Below are positions 12,320 to 19,930 of a stretch of 38,004 bases of DNA, piece after piece. Location of the stretch: positions 1-38,004 of the forward strand of contig QEXY01000033.1 in NCBI GenBank assembly GCA_003130875.1. Reading direction: 5' to 3'. The stretch comes from Ardenticatenia bacterium (GTDB lineage Bacteria > Chloroflexota > Anaerolineae > 4572-78 > NAK82). Position 1 is the first letter of the stretch. Each line of letters starts with the position of its first letter. The notes beneath the pieces were generated by a model. That model had not been told where the DNA came from. It saw only the letters and a list, made by a program, of their open reading frames with translations, and made no database searches. Made by a program: the position numbers and the translations under genes.

Positions 12320-13000
12320 ATGAGCGCTCGCAAAATACTAGTGATTGATGACGAACAGAACATTGTAGAACTTGTGGCCGCTTATCTGCGCAAGGAGGGC
12401 TACCAAGTCTACACTGCCACAGACGGTACCTCTGGGTTGAAGGCAGCGCGCTCTATCAGGCCGGATCTGATCGTGTTGGATATCATGCTGCCCGGGATGG
12501 ATGGGCTGGATGTCTTGACACAGCTACGCCGCGAGTCGAGTGTCTATGTCATTCTGTTGACTGCCAGATCCGATGAGACAGACAAGATCGTCGGTCTCAC
12601 CGTAGGTGCTGACGATTATGTTACAAAGCCATTCAGCCCGCGAGAGCTGGTCGCGCGTGTCAAAGCGGCGCTGCGCCGCATTCAGTCCAGTGCAGGTGCT
12701 GATTCGGGGATGCTGGTCTTTCGACACCTGCGCATAGATCCTGCCAGCCGGCAAGTCTGGGTGGACGAACAGCCGGTGAGTCTAACCACGATTGAGTTTG
12801 ACCTGTTGCGCACACTGGCTGAACATTATGGCATGGTGCTCAGCCGTGAACAGCTGTTGGAACAGGTGTGGGGCTATGATTTCTACGGGGAAGAGCGCGT
12901 GGTGGATGTTCATATCGGTCACATTCGCCGGAAGTTGGGAGATGAGCGCTTCATCGTTACCGTGCGCGGAGTAGGTTATCGCTTCGAGGACGAAAAGTGA
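12320..13000 (+). CDS. OmpR/PhoB-family response regulator
   Basis: DNA-binding response regulator, 226 residues. The receiver domain (about 4-118) has the acidic pair D10/D11, phospho-acceptor D54 in LIVLDIMLPGMDG and the conserved K in VTKPFSPRE. The C-terminal winged helix (about 130-224) has the recognition-helix region RVVDVHIGHIRRKLGD and the GVGYRF hairpin. The ribosome site before the ATG is weak (CGGAT). The stop overlaps the kinase start by 4 bp. OmpR-family regulators bind direct repeats at 10-11 bp spacing, and just such repeats occur at 14205-14248 and 15226-15269 downstream. Confidence 0.92.
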   Translation: MSARKILVIDDEQNIVELVAAYLRKEGYQVYTATDGTSGLKAARSIRPDLIVLDIMLPGMDGLDVLTQLRRESSVYVILLTARSDETDKIVGLTVGADDYVTKPFSPRELVARVKAALRRIQSSAGADSGMLVFRHLRIDPASRQVWVDEQPVSLTTIEFDLLRTLAEHYGMVLSREQLLEQVWGYDFYGEERVVDVHIGHIRRKLGDERFIVTVRGVGYRFEDEK

Positions 13001-14136
13001 TCCGGGCAGTCCACTATGTGCGCCGCCATCTGGTCTGGAAACTGCTTGTTTCCTATCTTATTGTCATTCTTGTTGGCATCATCGTGCTCATCTCGGCTGT
13101 TGAGTACTTTATGCCTAGTGCTTTTGAACGCCACCTGGCCGCGATGGCAACCGCAATGCAGACAGTTTCACCAGCCTTAGCGGAAGACCTCTTCACCAAC
13201 TTTCGTCGGGCGATGAATGAATCCTTGATATTCTCGTTGGTTGCTGCCTTCCTCGTGGCGGTGATTGCGAGCACTGTGATCAGCCGCCGCATTGTGATGC
13301 CGGTGCGCCGTATGATGATGGCCAGCCAGCGGATTGCCGAGGGCCATTATCACGAGCGGGTGGAACTGCCCGGCACGCATGATCCGGACAATCTGGATGA
13401 ACTGGGTTGCCTGGCGATTAGCTTCAACCAGATGGCGACACAGTTGGAGCGGATCGAGACCACCCGGCGTGAGTTGATCGGCGATGTGGCCCATGAGCTG
13501 CGTACGCCGCTGACCACCATTAAGGGCTATCTGGAAGGTTTGATGGATGGAGTCATCCCAGCCGACATCTCCACGTTCCAGCGCATATATCACGAGACTG
13601 AACGCTTGCAGCGACTGATCCAAGACCTGCAGGATCTCAGCCGCGTCGAAAGTGGTGCAATTGAAATGCACCCCCAACCGATCTCTGTAACACAGCTCAT
13701 CAACACGGCAGTCGCACGTCTGAGCCACCAGTTTGAAGAAAAAGGGGTGCAGCTGGCTACCAGTTTGCCTGAGCATCTGCCCGCTGTGTGGGCTGACGAA
13801 GCGCGTATTGGCCAGGTGCTGCTCAACCTGCTCGGCAATGCATTGCAATATACCCCTCCAGGTGGCCACGTACTGGTTTCCGCTCAACAGCGCGGAGCTG
13901 AGGTGCACATCACTGTGACCGATACTGGCATCGGTATCAGTGCGGAACATTTGCCGCTCATCTTCACGCGTTTTTACCGTGTGGATCGTTCTCGGTCACG
14001 TGCCAGCGGTGGCAGCGGTATTGGCCTGACCATCGCCCGACACCTGGTGGAAGCCCACGGTGGCCGCATTTGGGCTGAGAGTGCCGGACCCGGTAAGGGG
14101 AGCACCTTTACGTTTACTCTGCCTGTTGCCTCTTAG
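12997..14136 (+). CDS. Sensor histidine kinase (BaeS-like)
   Basis: Membrane sensor kinase, 379 residues, starting with GTG inside a GTGA overlap with the regulator. Two spans at about 14-34 and 77-95 enclose a short extracytoplasmic loop of about 45 residues. A HAMP domain follows (about 96-150), then HisKA with H166 in GDVAHELRTPLTTIKGYLEG, and HATPase with the N box (LLNLLGNALQYTPPGG), G1 (DTGIGI), F (FTRFYRVD) and G2 (GGSGIGLTIA). The loop is too small for a large ligand-binding fold, so the signal may be a metal, membrane stress or a protein contact. It is expected to phosphorylate the adjoining regulator. Confidence 0.92.
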   Translation: MIRAVHYVRRHLVWKLLVSYLIVILVGIIVLISAVEYFMPSAFERHLAAMATAMQTVSPALAEDLFTNFRRAMNESLIFSLVAAFLVAVIASTVISRRIVMPVRRMMMASQRIAEGHYHERVELPGTHDPDNLDELGCLAISFNQMATQLERIETTRRELIGDVAHELRTPLTTIKGYLEGLMDGVIPADISTFQRIYHETERLQRLIQDLQDLSRVESGAIEMHPQPISVTQLINTAVARLSHQFEEKGVQLATSLPEHLPAVWADEARIGQVLLNLLGNALQYTPPGGHVLVSAQQRGAEVHITVTDTGIGISAEHLPLIFTRFYRVDRSRSRASGGSGIGLTIARHLVEAHGGRIWAESAGPGKGSTFTFTLPVAS

Positions 14137-14612: not shown

Positions 14613-14834
14613 ATGATGGGTTTCGGCATGTTCGGGCTGATTTTCATGATCCTGGCATGGGGGGTGTTGATTGCTCTGGCGCTTTGGGTGGTTGGCAACC
14701 TCTTTTCCCAGGTTGGAAGGCGTCCTGCATCAACTGGTGATCATCTGACGGCACGGCAGGTTGTTGAAATGCGTTATGCCAGGGGGGAAATCACGCGGGA
14801 GCAATACGAACTGATGAAGCAGGACCTGAGATGA
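14613..14834 (+). CDS. Small SHOCT-domain membrane protein, copy 2
   Basis: A 73-residue paralogue of the preceding protein: Met/Gly/Phe-rich start, one span at about 5-30, and a SHOCT domain (VEMRYARGEITREQYELMKQDL). A GGAGG site lies 7 nt before the ATG. The two probably form hetero- or homo-oligomers in the membrane; their role in the neighbouring two-component pathway is not known. Confidence 0.8.
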   Translation: MMGFGMFGLIFMILAWGVLIALALWVVGNLFSQVGRRPASTGDHLTARQVVEMRYARGEITREQYELMKQDLR

Positions 14835-15329: not shown

Positions 15330-15386
15330 AGTCCCAAGACACAGTTGAACTATTTAAACACTCAAAAGTGTAAAAGGAGGAACATC

Positions 15387-16526
15387 GTGATACCTAGAAA
15401 GTTTATCTTTGGTAGCATAGTATTGTTAGGCCTGGTAGGTGTGGCAGTGCTGCTCATCAGCCTCATAACGTTCCCAGTTCGGGCACAGAGCCCATGGAGT
15501 GGGGGATGGATGGGCCAAGGGCATATGGGAGGCTGGGGGCCATGGAGCAGCTATGCCCAAGCTTACACGGGGACCATCCCTTACGGTTTTGGCCCAATGG
15601 GAATGATGGGCGGTGGAGCAGGTTGCCCGATGATGCCAGGTGGTTGGGCAGGTGTTGATCCCGATGCCAAACCGCTCACTCTGGCACAAGCACGTGAGAA
15701 TGTCCAGAAGTTTCTGGAAGGGATCGGCAACAGCGATCTCGAACTGGCTGAAGTGATGGAATTCACCGGCAACTTCTACGCCGAGGTGCGCGAGAAAAGC
15801 ACTGGCGTCGGCGCCTTTGAGTTGTTGGTGGATCGCTACACCGGTCAAGTCTATCCCGAGCCGGGTCCTAACATGATGTGGAATCTAAAATACGGCCATA
15901 TGGGCGGCTGGGGTATGATGCGTTGGCGTGGAAGTTCTGACGCCACCATGCCGGTGACACCTGAGCAGGCGATTGAGCAGGCACAGAAGTACCTGGACCA
16001 GCTAAACGCCGGACTGAAGGCCGGTGAAGCAGAACCTTTCTATGGCTACTATACGTTGCATATTGAGCGAGACGGCAGGGTGACTGGTATGCTCAGCGTC
16101 AACGGCTATACCGGTGCGGTGTGGTACCATCACTGGCACGGCGACTTCATTGCCATGGAAGAGGAAGACGAGATGCCCTCTTCCAGCATCCGTGGACCAA
16201 AGCTCGTGGTTGATCGTGAGCGGATTGACCTTGGCACCTTGCCTTTCAACAAGCGTGTCACGGCCGAATTTCGGGTGCAGAACGTCGGTGACAGTGATCT
16301 AATCATCCTCGAGAAACCAGCCATTGAGCTCGTTGAAGGTTGTTGACCGCCCAAAGAGGCAACCGTCGGTTCGACGGTGATTGCTCCCGGTCAGGGCACC
16401 GTAATCGCTCTCCAGTTCACTATGCCACCGGGAATGGGTGGACCGCATCGCTTTGATATTCGTCTGCGCACCAATGACCCGCAACAACCTGAGAAAGTGT
16501 TGATCGTCACATCAGATTGGCGCTGA
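15387..16526 (+). CDS. Secreted PepSY/DUF1573 protein, putative selenoprotein
   Basis: A 379-residue extracytoplasmic protein if the in-frame TGA at 16344-16346 is read as selenocysteine (Sec320). The GTG start at 15387 follows a strong AAGGAGG site. A signal sequence or anchor spans about 6-29. A Met/Gly/His/Trp-rich stretch (about 38-85 and 168-182) could bind copper or another soft metal. Two PepSY-like repeats cover about 97-165 and 189-250. From about 272 a DUF1573-type beta domain runs through the TGA: ELVEGC-U-PPKEATVG, then APGQGTVIALQFTMPPGMGGPHRFDI to the stop. Related DUF1573 proteins have CCPP at this place, from recall of the family, so Sec replaces the second of two vicinal cysteines. 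Without readthrough the protein would lose the last 60 residues, which are conserved in character. A nonsense mutation or sequencing error is the alternative. Confidence 0.8.
16359..16384 (+). promoter_or_regulatory. SECIS-like hairpin after the TGA codon
   Basis: Just 3' of the TGA, ACCGTCG (16362-16368) pairs perfectly with CGACGGT (16372-16378) across a GTT loop. Outer arms GCAA and TTGC can extend the stem over a 3-nt bulge. The loop G is 22 nt past the TGA, inside the 16-37 nt window known for bacterial SECIS elements. Opening the closing pair exposes GGUU, like the GGU loop recognised by SelB. The element is coding at the same time, as bacterial SECIS must be. Confidence 0.65.
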
Positions 16527-16545: not shown

Positions 16546-16549
16546 GGAG

Positions 16550-16611
16550 GACCTGTGGCCAGCGGAAGGAGTGCCTGGGATGGTACATGTCGCTCCTCTG
16601 GGCCACAGGTC
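16550..16611 (+). terminator. Long two-stem hairpin downstream of selenoprotein gene
   Basis: GACCTGTGGCC (16550-16560) pairs with GGCCACAGGTC (16601-16611) over 11 bp. Inside, AGGAGTG pairs with CGCTCCT including one G-U pair. CTTTACCCC follows. It could be the operon terminator or a structured RNA; a terminator is favoured because of position. Confidence 0.45.
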
Positions 16612-16940
16612 TTTACCCCATAAGAACAACGTGTTTCACGACCTTCTCACGATCGGTCCAACATTCAGCTGGGTTCCTTGCTTGCCCACGATGCGGAAGC
16701 CCCGCCCGTGAGGTATTGTGCGAAGCACGACCAGGCAATGTACAGGCAAGAGTGCGCTCCTCGTGGTTCGTGGACACCTACCATACGGTGTGCTCAATGC
16801 GGCTGGGGAACACCTCTGACCCCACCAGGCCAGCGGACACGTTTTCCAAGAACTGCAACGCGACGTGCAGCGACTTAGGAGCGATCCAACGAATACTGAA
16901 ACGGATCGCTGGAATCTCTGGGCAGGCGGAGGCCGAAGGA
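16612..16940. other. Intergenic stretch, possible decayed zinc-ribbon gene
   Basis: No gene can be assigned. The plus-strand frame at 16678-16878 (TTG start, no ribosome site) reads YCAKHDQAM..., then a tryptophan-containing linker and RCAQCGWGTPL. This resembles a short zinc-ribbon peptide but lacks any supporting start signal. It may be a remnant. Confidence 0.25.
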
Positions 16941-17345: not shown

Positions 17346-17364
17346 GATGAGCCAGAGGCTCATC
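17346..17364 (-). terminator. Hairpin at the end of the RACo-like gene
   Basis: GATGAGCC, loop AGA, GGCTCATC: a perfect 8-bp stem overlapping the stop codon of the RACo-like gene on the minus strand. There is no T-run. Confidence 0.4.
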
Positions 17365-18934
17365 CCTCCGGTGTCAGCGCCATCGCCTGGACGTAGTGCT
17401 GCATGAAGTCGGCATCCTGGTCCAGGTTGATCTGCTCAGCACGGGCTGCCAAGCGCTCAGCCCAGGCAAAACCTTCGTCGGAGAGGAACATGGCAGCGCC
17501 CAAGCCGGCGCCGTTCGGGATGGTCTCCACCACCGCGCGCTGCACGGGAGGCAACATGCCTACCCCCAAAACTGCTTCAATATCCAGCTGGGCGCCGAAA
17601 GAACCGGTGAGGATGACGCGTTGCAGGTCAGAAGGGCGCAATTGCAGCTGTTTTAACAGGATTTCCATCGCCGCGCGCATTGCACCCTTGGCCTTTTGCA
17701 GTTCACGCACGTCTTTCTGAGTGAAGCTCAGGCGGCCATCGGGTGTGAGCACCAGACGACGGCCGTTGCTATCCTGGACGATGCGATCGGCCAGCACGGG
17801 TGGATCGGTTGCGAAGCGTCCGTCCTCACGCAGCACCCCGGCCTGGCGCAGCGTCCACACCATGCTCAGCAATCCAGAGCCGGTCAGCCCTACAGGCTCC
17901 GCACCACCGATCGTGTCGTAGATCAGCTCACCGTCTGCCAGGCGCACTCCGATGATGGCGCCGTCCACAGCGCGAGTGCCACACGAGATGTTCACCCCTT
18001 CGAAGGCGGGTCCGGCAGCGGTGGAAGCGGTGAGGATGCGCTTGCCGTCGGTGACCATCACCTCACCGTTGGTGCCCAGGTCGATCGCAGCGATGGGGCC
18101 AGGCGGATTGTCGAAGCCAAAATAGGCCAGACAGGCCAGTGTGTCCGTGCCCACAAAGCCGCCGATCAACGGGGGCAGTGATACGCGCACGTGTTCCGGA
18201 AAGATGCCTCCCATCAGCGGGCGTGCATCCCGAATGGGTGATTTATCATAGGGTTGGAAGGGCATCATCGCCAAGGTGTGCACGGGCAGCTTGGCCAGCA
18301 GATGGTGCATCGCGACATTGCCCACGATCACCACCCGTTCGATGCGCGCGTACACTTTGGGCGCCAGCTTCAGGGCATCCACTGCCTGGTTGATCGAAGC
18401 GAGCGCCAGGTTGTGCAGGCGCTCCGCGTTCTCCGAATTGCGCAGCACGGCAGCCAGGCGCGAGATCACATCCCCGCCGAAGACGGTCTGTTGATTGAGC
18501 GTGGCGGCACCTGCGCATACCTCGCCGTTGTCCAACATGGTGAGGAAAGCAGCCACCGTGGTCGAGCCCAGGTCAATCGCCAGGCCGAGTGGCACGTGGA
18601 CATCGCGCTTATAGCGATTGCTGGCGCGGAAGCTTTTATTCGAGTAGACCACGATCGGCGCCAGGGTCACCCGCGCGTCCTCGTACACGCGTGCCCGACA
18701 GGCCAATCGGTAACGTAACGCTCGCTCGCCAGGGGTGAGATGTTTCAGTTCGACGTCGTCGAAGGGGCTCAAACCTCCTTCGGCCAACACCTTACACTTG
18801 CCGCATGTGCCACGACCGGCACATGGTTGCTCAAGCGGCAGCCCGGCTGCGATGATCACATCGCCCAACACACTATCCCGCGCGGCAGGCAGCTCGCGTA
18901 CTTCTTCGCCATAGATCACCGTAACTGTAGGCAT
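17360..18934 (-). CDS. RACo-like corrinoid protein reductive activator
   Basis: A 524-residue ferredoxin/ASKHA-fold protein. The N-terminal 2Fe-2S domain has ligands C38, C44, C47 and C79 (PCAGRGTCGKC and RLACRA). The rest is the middle and C-terminal DUF4445 ASKHA ATPase-like region, with LGLAIDLGSTTVAAF (about 125-140), AAIDLGTNGEVMV, and GSGLLSM. Such proteins spend ATP and low-potential electrons to reduce inactive Co(II) corrinoid to Co(I) in methyltransferase systems. The ATG at 18934 is chosen over 18961 because it has GAGG upstream and matches the family N-terminus. The DUF1638 gene upstream on the same strand supports a corrinoid methyl-transfer role, although no methyltransferase or corrinoid protein is in the window. 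Confidence 0.88.
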   Translation of the reverse strand: MPTVTVIYGEEVRELPAARDSVLGDVIIAAGLPLEQPCAGRGTCGKCKVLAEGGLSPFDDVELKHLTPGERALRYRLACRARVYEDARVTLAPIVVYSNKSFRASNRYKRDVHVPLGLAIDLGSTTVAAFLTMLDNGEVCAGAATLNQQTVFGGDVISRLAAVLRNSENAERLHNLALASINQAVDALKLAPKVYARIERVVIVGNVAMHHLLAKLPVHTLAMMPFQPYDKSPIRDARPLMGGIFPEHVRVSLPPLIGGFVGTDTLACLAYFGFDNPPGPIAAIDLGTNGEVMVTDGKRILTASTAAGPAFEGVNISCGTRAVDGAIIGVRLADGELIYDTIGGAEPVGLTGSGLLSMVWTLRQAGVLREDGRFATDPPVLADRIVQDSNGRRLVLTPDGRLSFTQKDVRELQKAKGAMRAAMEILLKQLQLRPSDLQRVILTGSFGAQLDIEAVLGVGMLPPVQRAVVETIPNGAGLGAAMFLSDEGFAWAERLAARAEQINLDQDADFMQHYVQAMALTPEG

Positions 18935-19076
18935 TGCGGAAGTCCTCAACTGGCTATACAATCATTCATTTATCTACTCACAAGACGAAGCTGCCCGGCG
19001 CGGTCTGTGTCCTATGCCACAAGTGTCCCGTGCAACGGCAGCGCAGTTTCCGGTGCGCGTTTGGGCAGGCTGTGGG

Positions 19077-19859
19077 TCAACCGCCCGGTATCTGGAATTG
19101 CTCTTGGGTGATCTCGCCACCCGGGGGCACTACCAGGAACTCCTCGTCCGCCTGATCCAGCGCCGCGGCGACCTCGATCAATCGCCGCATATAGCGATCG
19201 GAGCCCATCATCTCCTCATACCGCATCCCCCACCGCCGACAGAATTGGGCGATCTGTTCCACACGGGGGCGATAGTGTTCCAGTTCTGCCTGCGTGTGCG
19301 CCACAAACACCAATCTGCGATAATTGCGATACAGCTGATCGACCAGCCATTGGGCTGTCTCCGGCCCGTATTGGGCGGCATAGATCTCATACGTGGTCAA
19401 GGGGTCGGCACCATAGCGGGCATCGTTCGTGCCCGTAGGGTTGATGCGCGACACGTCCGCCTCCAGCCATCCGCGTCCCAAATAATACGTGCCTGGCTCC
19501 TTCCGAAACTCTTCCAGGTAGGCTTGACGCGAGCCCAACATAATCGCGATACAGTCGTCCACCCGCGGCACGAGCAGCACGTGCTTGCCCGCCTTGAGGC
19601 CGTGCAGGCCGTTGCCGCACAATCCGTAGGCCAGCACGATCAGGCTGGGTTGCTCAACGCTGTCGATCGCTTCCTGCAGGGTGCGTTGCATGATCTTGGG
19701 TGTCACATGTAATGCCATGTCGAAGAATTGCACCCGACTGGCGAGACCCTGTGGGAGGAGCTCTTGCAACATCTCTTGGAACACCGTACAAGCGAATACC
19801 ACAACGGGCAGGCTATCCTGGGCAGTTGTGCGTTCTCCCATCTGGAATTCCTCTGACAT
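19077..19859 (-). CDS. DUF1638 domain protein
   Basis: A 260-residue cytosolic protein of the DUF1638 family, recognisable by VVVFACTVFQEML near the start, the VLAYGLCGNGLHGL motif and VPRVDDCIAIMLGSR, then a C-terminal half with GTYYLGRGWLEAD and EEFLVVPPGGEI. Members commonly neighbour corrinoid methyltransferase genes and RACo-type activators, as here. The biochemical role is not established. The start is uncertain: 19859 is used, while an in-frame ATG at 19904 would add 15 unconserved residues. A GATAAT element lies just upstream of 19859, which argues for the shorter form. Confidence 0.82.
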   Translation of the reverse strand: MSEEFQMGERTTAQDSLPVVVFACTVFQEMLQELLPQGLASRVQFFDMALHVTPKIMQRTLQEAIDSVEQPSLIVLAYGLCGNGLHGLKAGKHVLLVPRVDDCIAIMLGSRQAYLEEFRKEPGTYYLGRGWLEADVSRINPTGTNDARYGADPLTTYEIYAAQYGPETAQWLVDQLYRNYRRLVFVAHTQAELEHYRPRVEQIAQFCRRWGMRYEEMMGSDRYMRRLIEVAAALDQADEEFLVVPPGGEITQEQFQIPGG

Positions 19860-19930
19860 AATGGTAATACCTGTATTATCATCCAAAACAGGTTTTTCTG
19901 CCACTCTGCGTGGGTTGGGGTGTGTTCTGC

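Follow-up and report, generated by a model that had tools for sequence, protein, structure and literature searches.

The window, the whole stretch of 38,004 nucleotides of the Ardenticatenia bacterium contig QEXY01000033.1 that was analysed, contains a complete predicted selenoprotein gene at 15387-16526. This gene and the other features described here lie on the + strand unless stated otherwise. Translation starts at a GTG codon at 15387, 6 nt downstream of the Shine-Dalgarno-like sequence AAAAGGAGG (15372-15380), and the product consists of a signal/TM segment, a Met/His/Gly-rich region, two PepSY-like repeats and a DUF1573-like Ig domain carrying Cys319-Sec320. The first residue of this vicinal pair, Cys319, is encoded by TGT (16341-16343) and is directly followed by an in-frame TGA (16344-16346), which we read as Sec320 and which interrupts the DUF1573-like Ig domain. 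A further 59 sense codons lead to a second TGA (16524-16526), which is the real stop of the gene. The frame, its TGT followed by an in-frame TGA and the open frame beyond are as the first-pass annotation of this DNA had described them. Downstream of the second stop, a very stable long hairpin (16547-16614, z -3.9) is the likely end of the transcript. It is also found in the nearest relative of the gene (L001), where the counterpart has a z of -3.1 and a different sequence. No Rfam family matched the window.

Upstream of the gene lie a response regulator (12320-13000) and a sensor kinase (12997-14136), homologues of which recur near PepSY genes or near genes of the subfamily described below, here called CUPP. 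A small membrane SHOCT protein (14613-14834) also recurs at homologous loci. On the 3' side of the selenoprotein gene, on the - strand, are genes for a RACo-type corrinoid activation protein (17360-18961) and a DUF1638 protein (19077-19904), which are perhaps part of a corrinoid methyltransferase module.

The DUF1573/HYDIN-type Ig-like domain spans residues 271-379 (16197-16523), with half of its strands encoded after the TGA. The read-through product scores 31.4 bits against PF07610 (cut-off 26.1) and 38.9 bits against PF22544 (cut-off 25.5), and both matches extend across the TGA, covering residues 271-373. Some CUPP members fall below the PF07610 gathering score (19.6). The CGC(T) motif of ordinary DUF1573 members is absent, the motif here being C-U-P(P) or C-C-P. 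The region at 15666-16172 is PepSY-like, with two helix-plus-strands repeats (model pLDDT 83), and scores 22.4 bits against PF03413, just under the gathering score of 24. Most genomes that have a PepSY protein encode it as a separate gene. PepSY and CUPP share one frame in the window, in its sister and probably in G405, and they are close but separate genes in several others. Of the earlier description as a PepSY/DUF1573 protein, the DUF1573 assignment holds, the PepSY assignment stays below the Pfam cut-off, and the fusion is a local exception.

We modelled the read-through domain with AlphaFold from an alignment of 29 sequences, which gave a pLDDT of 96.2; an alignment combined over the full length put the domains in wrong positions, and we left it out of the folding. 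Strands 60-62, 72-79, 87-97 and 104-113 of the domain model are all encoded after the TGA. Structural comparison of the whole domain placed it with Ig/ASH/HYDIN-type folds, with the best match to 2qsv (Z 13.9, RMSD 2.7 over 105 residues). This fold is common to many non-catalytic domains and so gives no function. The CU loop of the model follows strand 47-52, and the loop between strands 72-79 and 87-97 carries a conserved M346-x3-M350-x3-H354 motif (MPPGMGGPH, 16422-16448), which takes the form MHxGMxGPH in most members. Met346, Met350 and His354 are candidate soft-metal ligands. Since the Ig strand order places the CD and EF loops together, we infer that the CU and Met/His loops correspond to these two loops and lie at one pole of the modelled sandwich.

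To place the gene among its homologues, we made three scans, one of 400 genomes from the phylum, one of 61 relatives and one of 396 genomes from the class. CUPP-type domains were found in many Chloroflexota families across the three scans. After removal of duplicates, 63 homologues carried TGA at the Sec column, always with Cys before and Pro after it (C-U-P); the motif search demanded these two neighbours, and no strong homologue departed from them. Conservation of this kind goes far beyond what chance would give. The class scan also yielded eight homologues without a stop, which read GCCPP, GCCPS, GCCPQ or GCCPN and have Cys exactly in the TGA column. This confirmed, for eight relatives, the CCPP motif that the first-pass annotation had given for relatives of this domain and its expectation of a Cys in that column. 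Over the 71 sequences the near-invariant positions are the first Cys (71/71), the U or C, the following Pro, a PG, and M-x3-M-x3-H, in which each Met and the His are present in 69. Most members are standalone proteins of 145-230 residues that are apparently exported or membrane-anchored. A search for the CUPP gene on plasmids gave no match.

Several matches from these searches deserve separate mention. Three archaeal matches (L179, L180 and L181, from MAGs) were rejected as CUPP members, being ordinary CGCT DUF1573 proteins. Their neighbours are another DUF1573 protein and membrane proteins resembling DsbD, a context that suggests a thiol-redox setting for DUF1573 proteins in general. Extra CUPP copies in two single-contig genomes, L128 (G112:C1:4125179-4125534) and G005:C1:3108771-3108989, look like pseudogenes, one being split over two frames and the other retaining part of the domain. 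The record 'Clostridiales bacterium PH28_bin88' (L010 / G449) contains PepSY, DUF1573 and CUPP genes close to those of Leptolinea/Anaerolineae, and its Clostridiales label or its bin may be wrong.

In the protein tree the Cys forms are nested in Sec groups. The Cys label requires 5 changes, at least 4 of which are forced by well-supported branches. Sec is likely to be ancestral in the CUPP subfamily and to have been replaced by Cys at least four to five times. The tree was built from few columns and lacks an outgroup, so this is the likely reading, short of proof. Two genomes (G558 and G655) have one Cys copy near one Sec copy each. Among the five genomes with a Cys form only, three lack selA, one of these being a single-contig genome, and the remaining two possess it. 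The gene neighbours of Cys-form loci match those of Sec-form loci, so the two forms probably do the same job.

Downstream of the TGA we identified a bSECIS hairpin (16362-16378), formed by the 5' arm ACCGTC (16362-16367), the loop GGTTC (16368-16372) and the 3' arm GACGGT (16373-16378). Its stem starts 15 nt 3' of the TGA. The distance from the TGA to the start of the loop is 21 nt in the window gene and in that of its sister, and 18 nt in nearly all other members. Published bSECIS limits are a loop of 3-9 nt, a stem of 4-16 bp, a spacing of 16-37 nt, an MFE of at most -7.5 and a G in the first two loop positions (PMC13188914); the window hairpin lies within them, with a 5-nt loop GGTTC, 6 bp, 21 nt and -10.1 kcal/mol. 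A hairpin of 5-7 bp with a 5-nt, G-containing loop is present at this fixed place in all 63 Sec forms, as against 0-2 bp in all eight Cys forms (Fisher p 9e-11, relatedness ignored). Stem pair 1, the closing pair, which joins two wobble positions, is C-G in 37 sequences, G-C in 3 and A-T in 3, and is thus intact in 43/43. In 44 of 45 sequences the loop codon is either GGT or AGT; elsewhere in the same genes GGT makes up 148 of 749 Gly codons (about 20%) and AGT 63 of 473 Ser codons (about 13%). Comparisons with synonymous recoding gave weak signals, both for the folding energy of the 45-nt segment that follows the TGA (mean z -0.8, as against -0.06 to -0.45 in controls) and for longest-stem length (about 0.13 per sequence). 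It was the tests of fixed position, of covariation and of Sec against Cys forms that were informative about the recoding signal.

The window's own genome contains selA, selB, a tRNA-Sec with anticodon TCA and selD, so that all four genes whose presence had been proposed as a check are there. Its selD itself has an in-frame TGA, in AAGUASK. Across Sec-form genomes, selA was found in 33 of 34 in a first test; in a second test of 38, four lacked it and three had only weak, paralogue-like matches. All of these are draft MAGs, in which a missing selA may reflect incompleteness. The presence of selA is by itself weak evidence, because most of the Chloroflexota sampled without a CUPP gene also have it. 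With the TGA shared by 63 homologues, the hairpin confined to Sec forms, the sel genes and a low dN/dS (below), the earlier selenoprotein prediction is strongly supported. The sequence comparisons make it highly probable that the product is an exported selenoprotein with Sec at UGA 16344-16346, and that it belongs to CUPP, a DUF1573-type subfamily whose members contain Sec. SelB and tRNA-Sec would decode this codon under the direction of the hairpin 15 nt downstream, and the protein would carry Cys319 and Sec320 as a vicinal pair at one pole of its Ig-like beta sandwich.

To get a view of the possible function, we examined the neighbours of CUPP genes at 37 loci. These included a PCYCGC protein (PF13798) at 22 loci, a 4Fe-4S membrane protein at 17, a COX2-like cupredoxin at 15, a sensor kinase at 9, cytochrome c at 9, a heavy-metal (Cu-type) P-ATPase at 8, SHOCT at 6, PepSY at 5, TlpA at 5 and CcdA at 2; these counts give a trend and not a rate, as the 37 include L243 (an ordinary DUF1573 match only), loci of unequal length and some loci from the same genome. 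The cupredoxins have the CuA motif C-x3-C-x3-H-x2-M at 14 of 36 loci, often in two genes, and where tested one CuA-type cupredoxin of the pair was fused to cytochrome c. A recurrent Chloroflexota gene set, comprising PCYCGC, two CuA-type cupredoxins (one with cytochrome c) and the 4Fe-4S membrane protein, is seen at L162, L169, L170, L232, L236, L237 and similar loci. Neither a CuA cupredoxin nor a PCYCGC gene was seen beside the gene in the window, where the neighbours recognised nearby are the two-component system, SHOCT and PepSY parts; the copper link comes from other genomes.

We tentatively favour, at somewhat under an even chance, a role for CUPP as an extracytoplasmic Cu(I)/thiol-redox factor, suggested by the C-U pair, M-x3-M-x3-H and the PCYCGC, CuA-cupredoxin, Fe-S and Cu-ATPase neighbours. 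The Cys-Sec pair together with Met346, Met350 and His354 would make up an extracytoplasmic site with redox activity and a soft-metal, Cu(I)-like character, and this site could bind, reduce or pass on copper, or keep the cysteines of a CuA-type cupredoxin reduced. In this lineage the domain is fused to a Met/His-rich PepSY-like protein, which probably serves as metal sensor or scaffold, and a two-component system is encoded nearby. The soft-metal, copper-like chemistry proposed in the first-pass annotation gains support from the near-invariant M-x3-M-x3-H and the copper-type neighbours; the function itself is still an inferred one. It is conceivable, with less confidence again, that CUPP is the Se-dependent copper-handling part of an undescribed Chloroflexota module made up of PCYCGC, CuA cupredoxins, CUPP and the Fe-S membrane protein. 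If so, the role of the Cys-Sec pair and Met/His residues would be to bind or reduce the copper used in assembling the CuA site, and CUPP would be a selenol-based copper chaperone.

The vicinal Cys-Sec pair could instead belong to a Sec-containing thiol-disulfide or peroxide reductase that binds no metal and runs a selenenylsulfide cycle recharged by CcdA/TlpA-type donors. At L162 the genes for a DsbD-type CcdA and for TlpA adjoin the CUPP gene, which fits such a cycle; across the 37 loci, however, the five TlpA and two CcdA genes are minority neighbours. The domain also lacks a thioredoxin-like fold, and conserved Met and His residues outside the pair would not be expected in a plain oxidoreductase. 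We regard a reductase as possible but doubtful. Less probable still, and in our view unlikely, is a protein that binds mercury, organometals or metalloids, like other proteins with a Cys-Sec pair in the SAO and mercury groups. Met, His, Cys and Sec are all soft ligands, and the published CU motifs in SaoL, SaoC, SaoB, HgcA and MbdU are mostly tied to metals (PMC13188914), but the neighbours sampled are copper- and respiration-like, and none of them was recognised as a mer, sao or hgc gene.

Both of these alternatives retain Sec320, whereas a genuine stop at 16344-16346 would not. A single TGA in an otherwise open frame, and a mechanical ORF call that gives a truncated product of 342 aa, would fit a stop followed by a decaying remnant, a sequencing error or general stop-codon read-through. 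We compared the gene with its nearest relative, an Ardenticatenia MAG with 79-80% identity (L001/L129, apparently one genome reached twice), which has TGA at the same codon, preceded by TGC for Cys vs TGT in the window. The dN/dS of the PepSY part was 0.052; for the domain it was 0.075 upstream of the TGA and 0.083 downstream, and similarity between the two genes stops at the second TGA. The frame decay that had been named as a possible refutation is thus not seen: selection after the TGA is purifying, with a dN/dS as low as that before it. The recurrence of the same TGA in 63 homologues, the hairpin in TGA forms only and the Cys in this column elsewhere also speak against a stop, and the truncated product would lack half the domain. 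Conservation refutes decay and sequencing error, leaving a genuine stop very improbable. Reassignment of TGA in this genome, for example to Trp or Gly, would fit an in-frame TGA taken alone and is rejected as the least probable reading of all, as the gene itself and other members end in TGA, relatives replace the codon with Cys and not with Trp or Gly, and tRNA-Sec(UCA) and selA/B/D are present.

The Sec reading of CUPP adds a widespread subfamily to the known selenoproteome, whose genes a standard reading of stop codons would cut short at the TGA. Sec is common in CUPP and Cys rare, and the Cys forms, which have lost the hairpin, arise repeatedly within the Sec forms. The 2026 review describes Sec-to-Cys replacement as rare in prokaryotes (PMC13188914), so CUPP is a good natural test of it. 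CUPP further provides a vicinal thiol-selenol pair whose role, extracytoplasmic and probably tied to copper, can be put to the test. A text search of the 2022 and 2026 selenoprotein reviews found no mention of Chloroflexota.

We compared CUPP with known selenoproteins and related domains. The first-pass annotation named no known selenoprotein of this family, a point that needs correction: OS_HP2 is a DUF1573 (pfam07610) selenoprotein with the motif UxC/UGC (PMC2398784, PMC9312934, PMC13188914), named in PMC2398784 and attributed by reviews to Zhang and Gladyshev 2007. CUPP is therefore a new Sec subfamily within a superfamily already known, and not its first selenoprotein. OS_HP2 (NF041425, PF07610) shares the DUF1573-type domain, with Sec at the domain's cysteine motif, but that motif is UGC, in contrast to C-U-P in all 63 Sec forms here. 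Against NF041425 (cut-off 100) the window protein scored 20.1 bits and two relatives 28.0 and 37.7; we kept CUPP out of the OS_HP2 subfamily because of these low scores and the different motif. The same domain with another Sec motif is counted as a distinct subfamily in the 2026 review, whose list of 119 families has no CU-type DUF1573 entry (PMC13188914), and the CUPP protein scored above no NCBIfam cut-off. Within the literature searched, CUPP is well supported as a new Sec subfamily; mention in recent discovery papers is possible.

Ordinary Cys DUF1573 proteins with CGCT (e.g. L010, L012, L179) belong to the same family, with a profile-profile probability of 98.5%, and are paralogues of CUPP in some of the same genomes; they differ in having CGCT and no TGA, as against CUPP/CCPP. 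The profile alignment of the two has a gap at the motif, so that U may correspond to either of the first two residues of CGC. PCYCGC proteins (PF13798), for which a Sec form, OS_HP4, is known, are likewise exported and Cys-rich and are frequent CUPP neighbours, but they are unrelated to CUPP in sequence, and the neighbours seen here are Cys forms. Solved HYDIN/ASH-type Ig domains share the fold of the whole domain (2qsv, Z 13.9; VesC 6bqm, Z 11.8; HYDIN 2e6j, Z 10.6), whereas the CU pair belongs to the CUPP motif, and the shared fold implies no shared function. Finally, the published Cys-Sec (CU) selenoproteins, SaoL, SaoC, SaoB, HgcA, MbdU, CopZ-like form 2 and KCU-star (PMC13188914), share the vicinal Cys-Sec pair with CUPP and are mostly tied to metals, but they sit in other domain families, the table in PMC13188914 containing no DUF1573/Ig domain.
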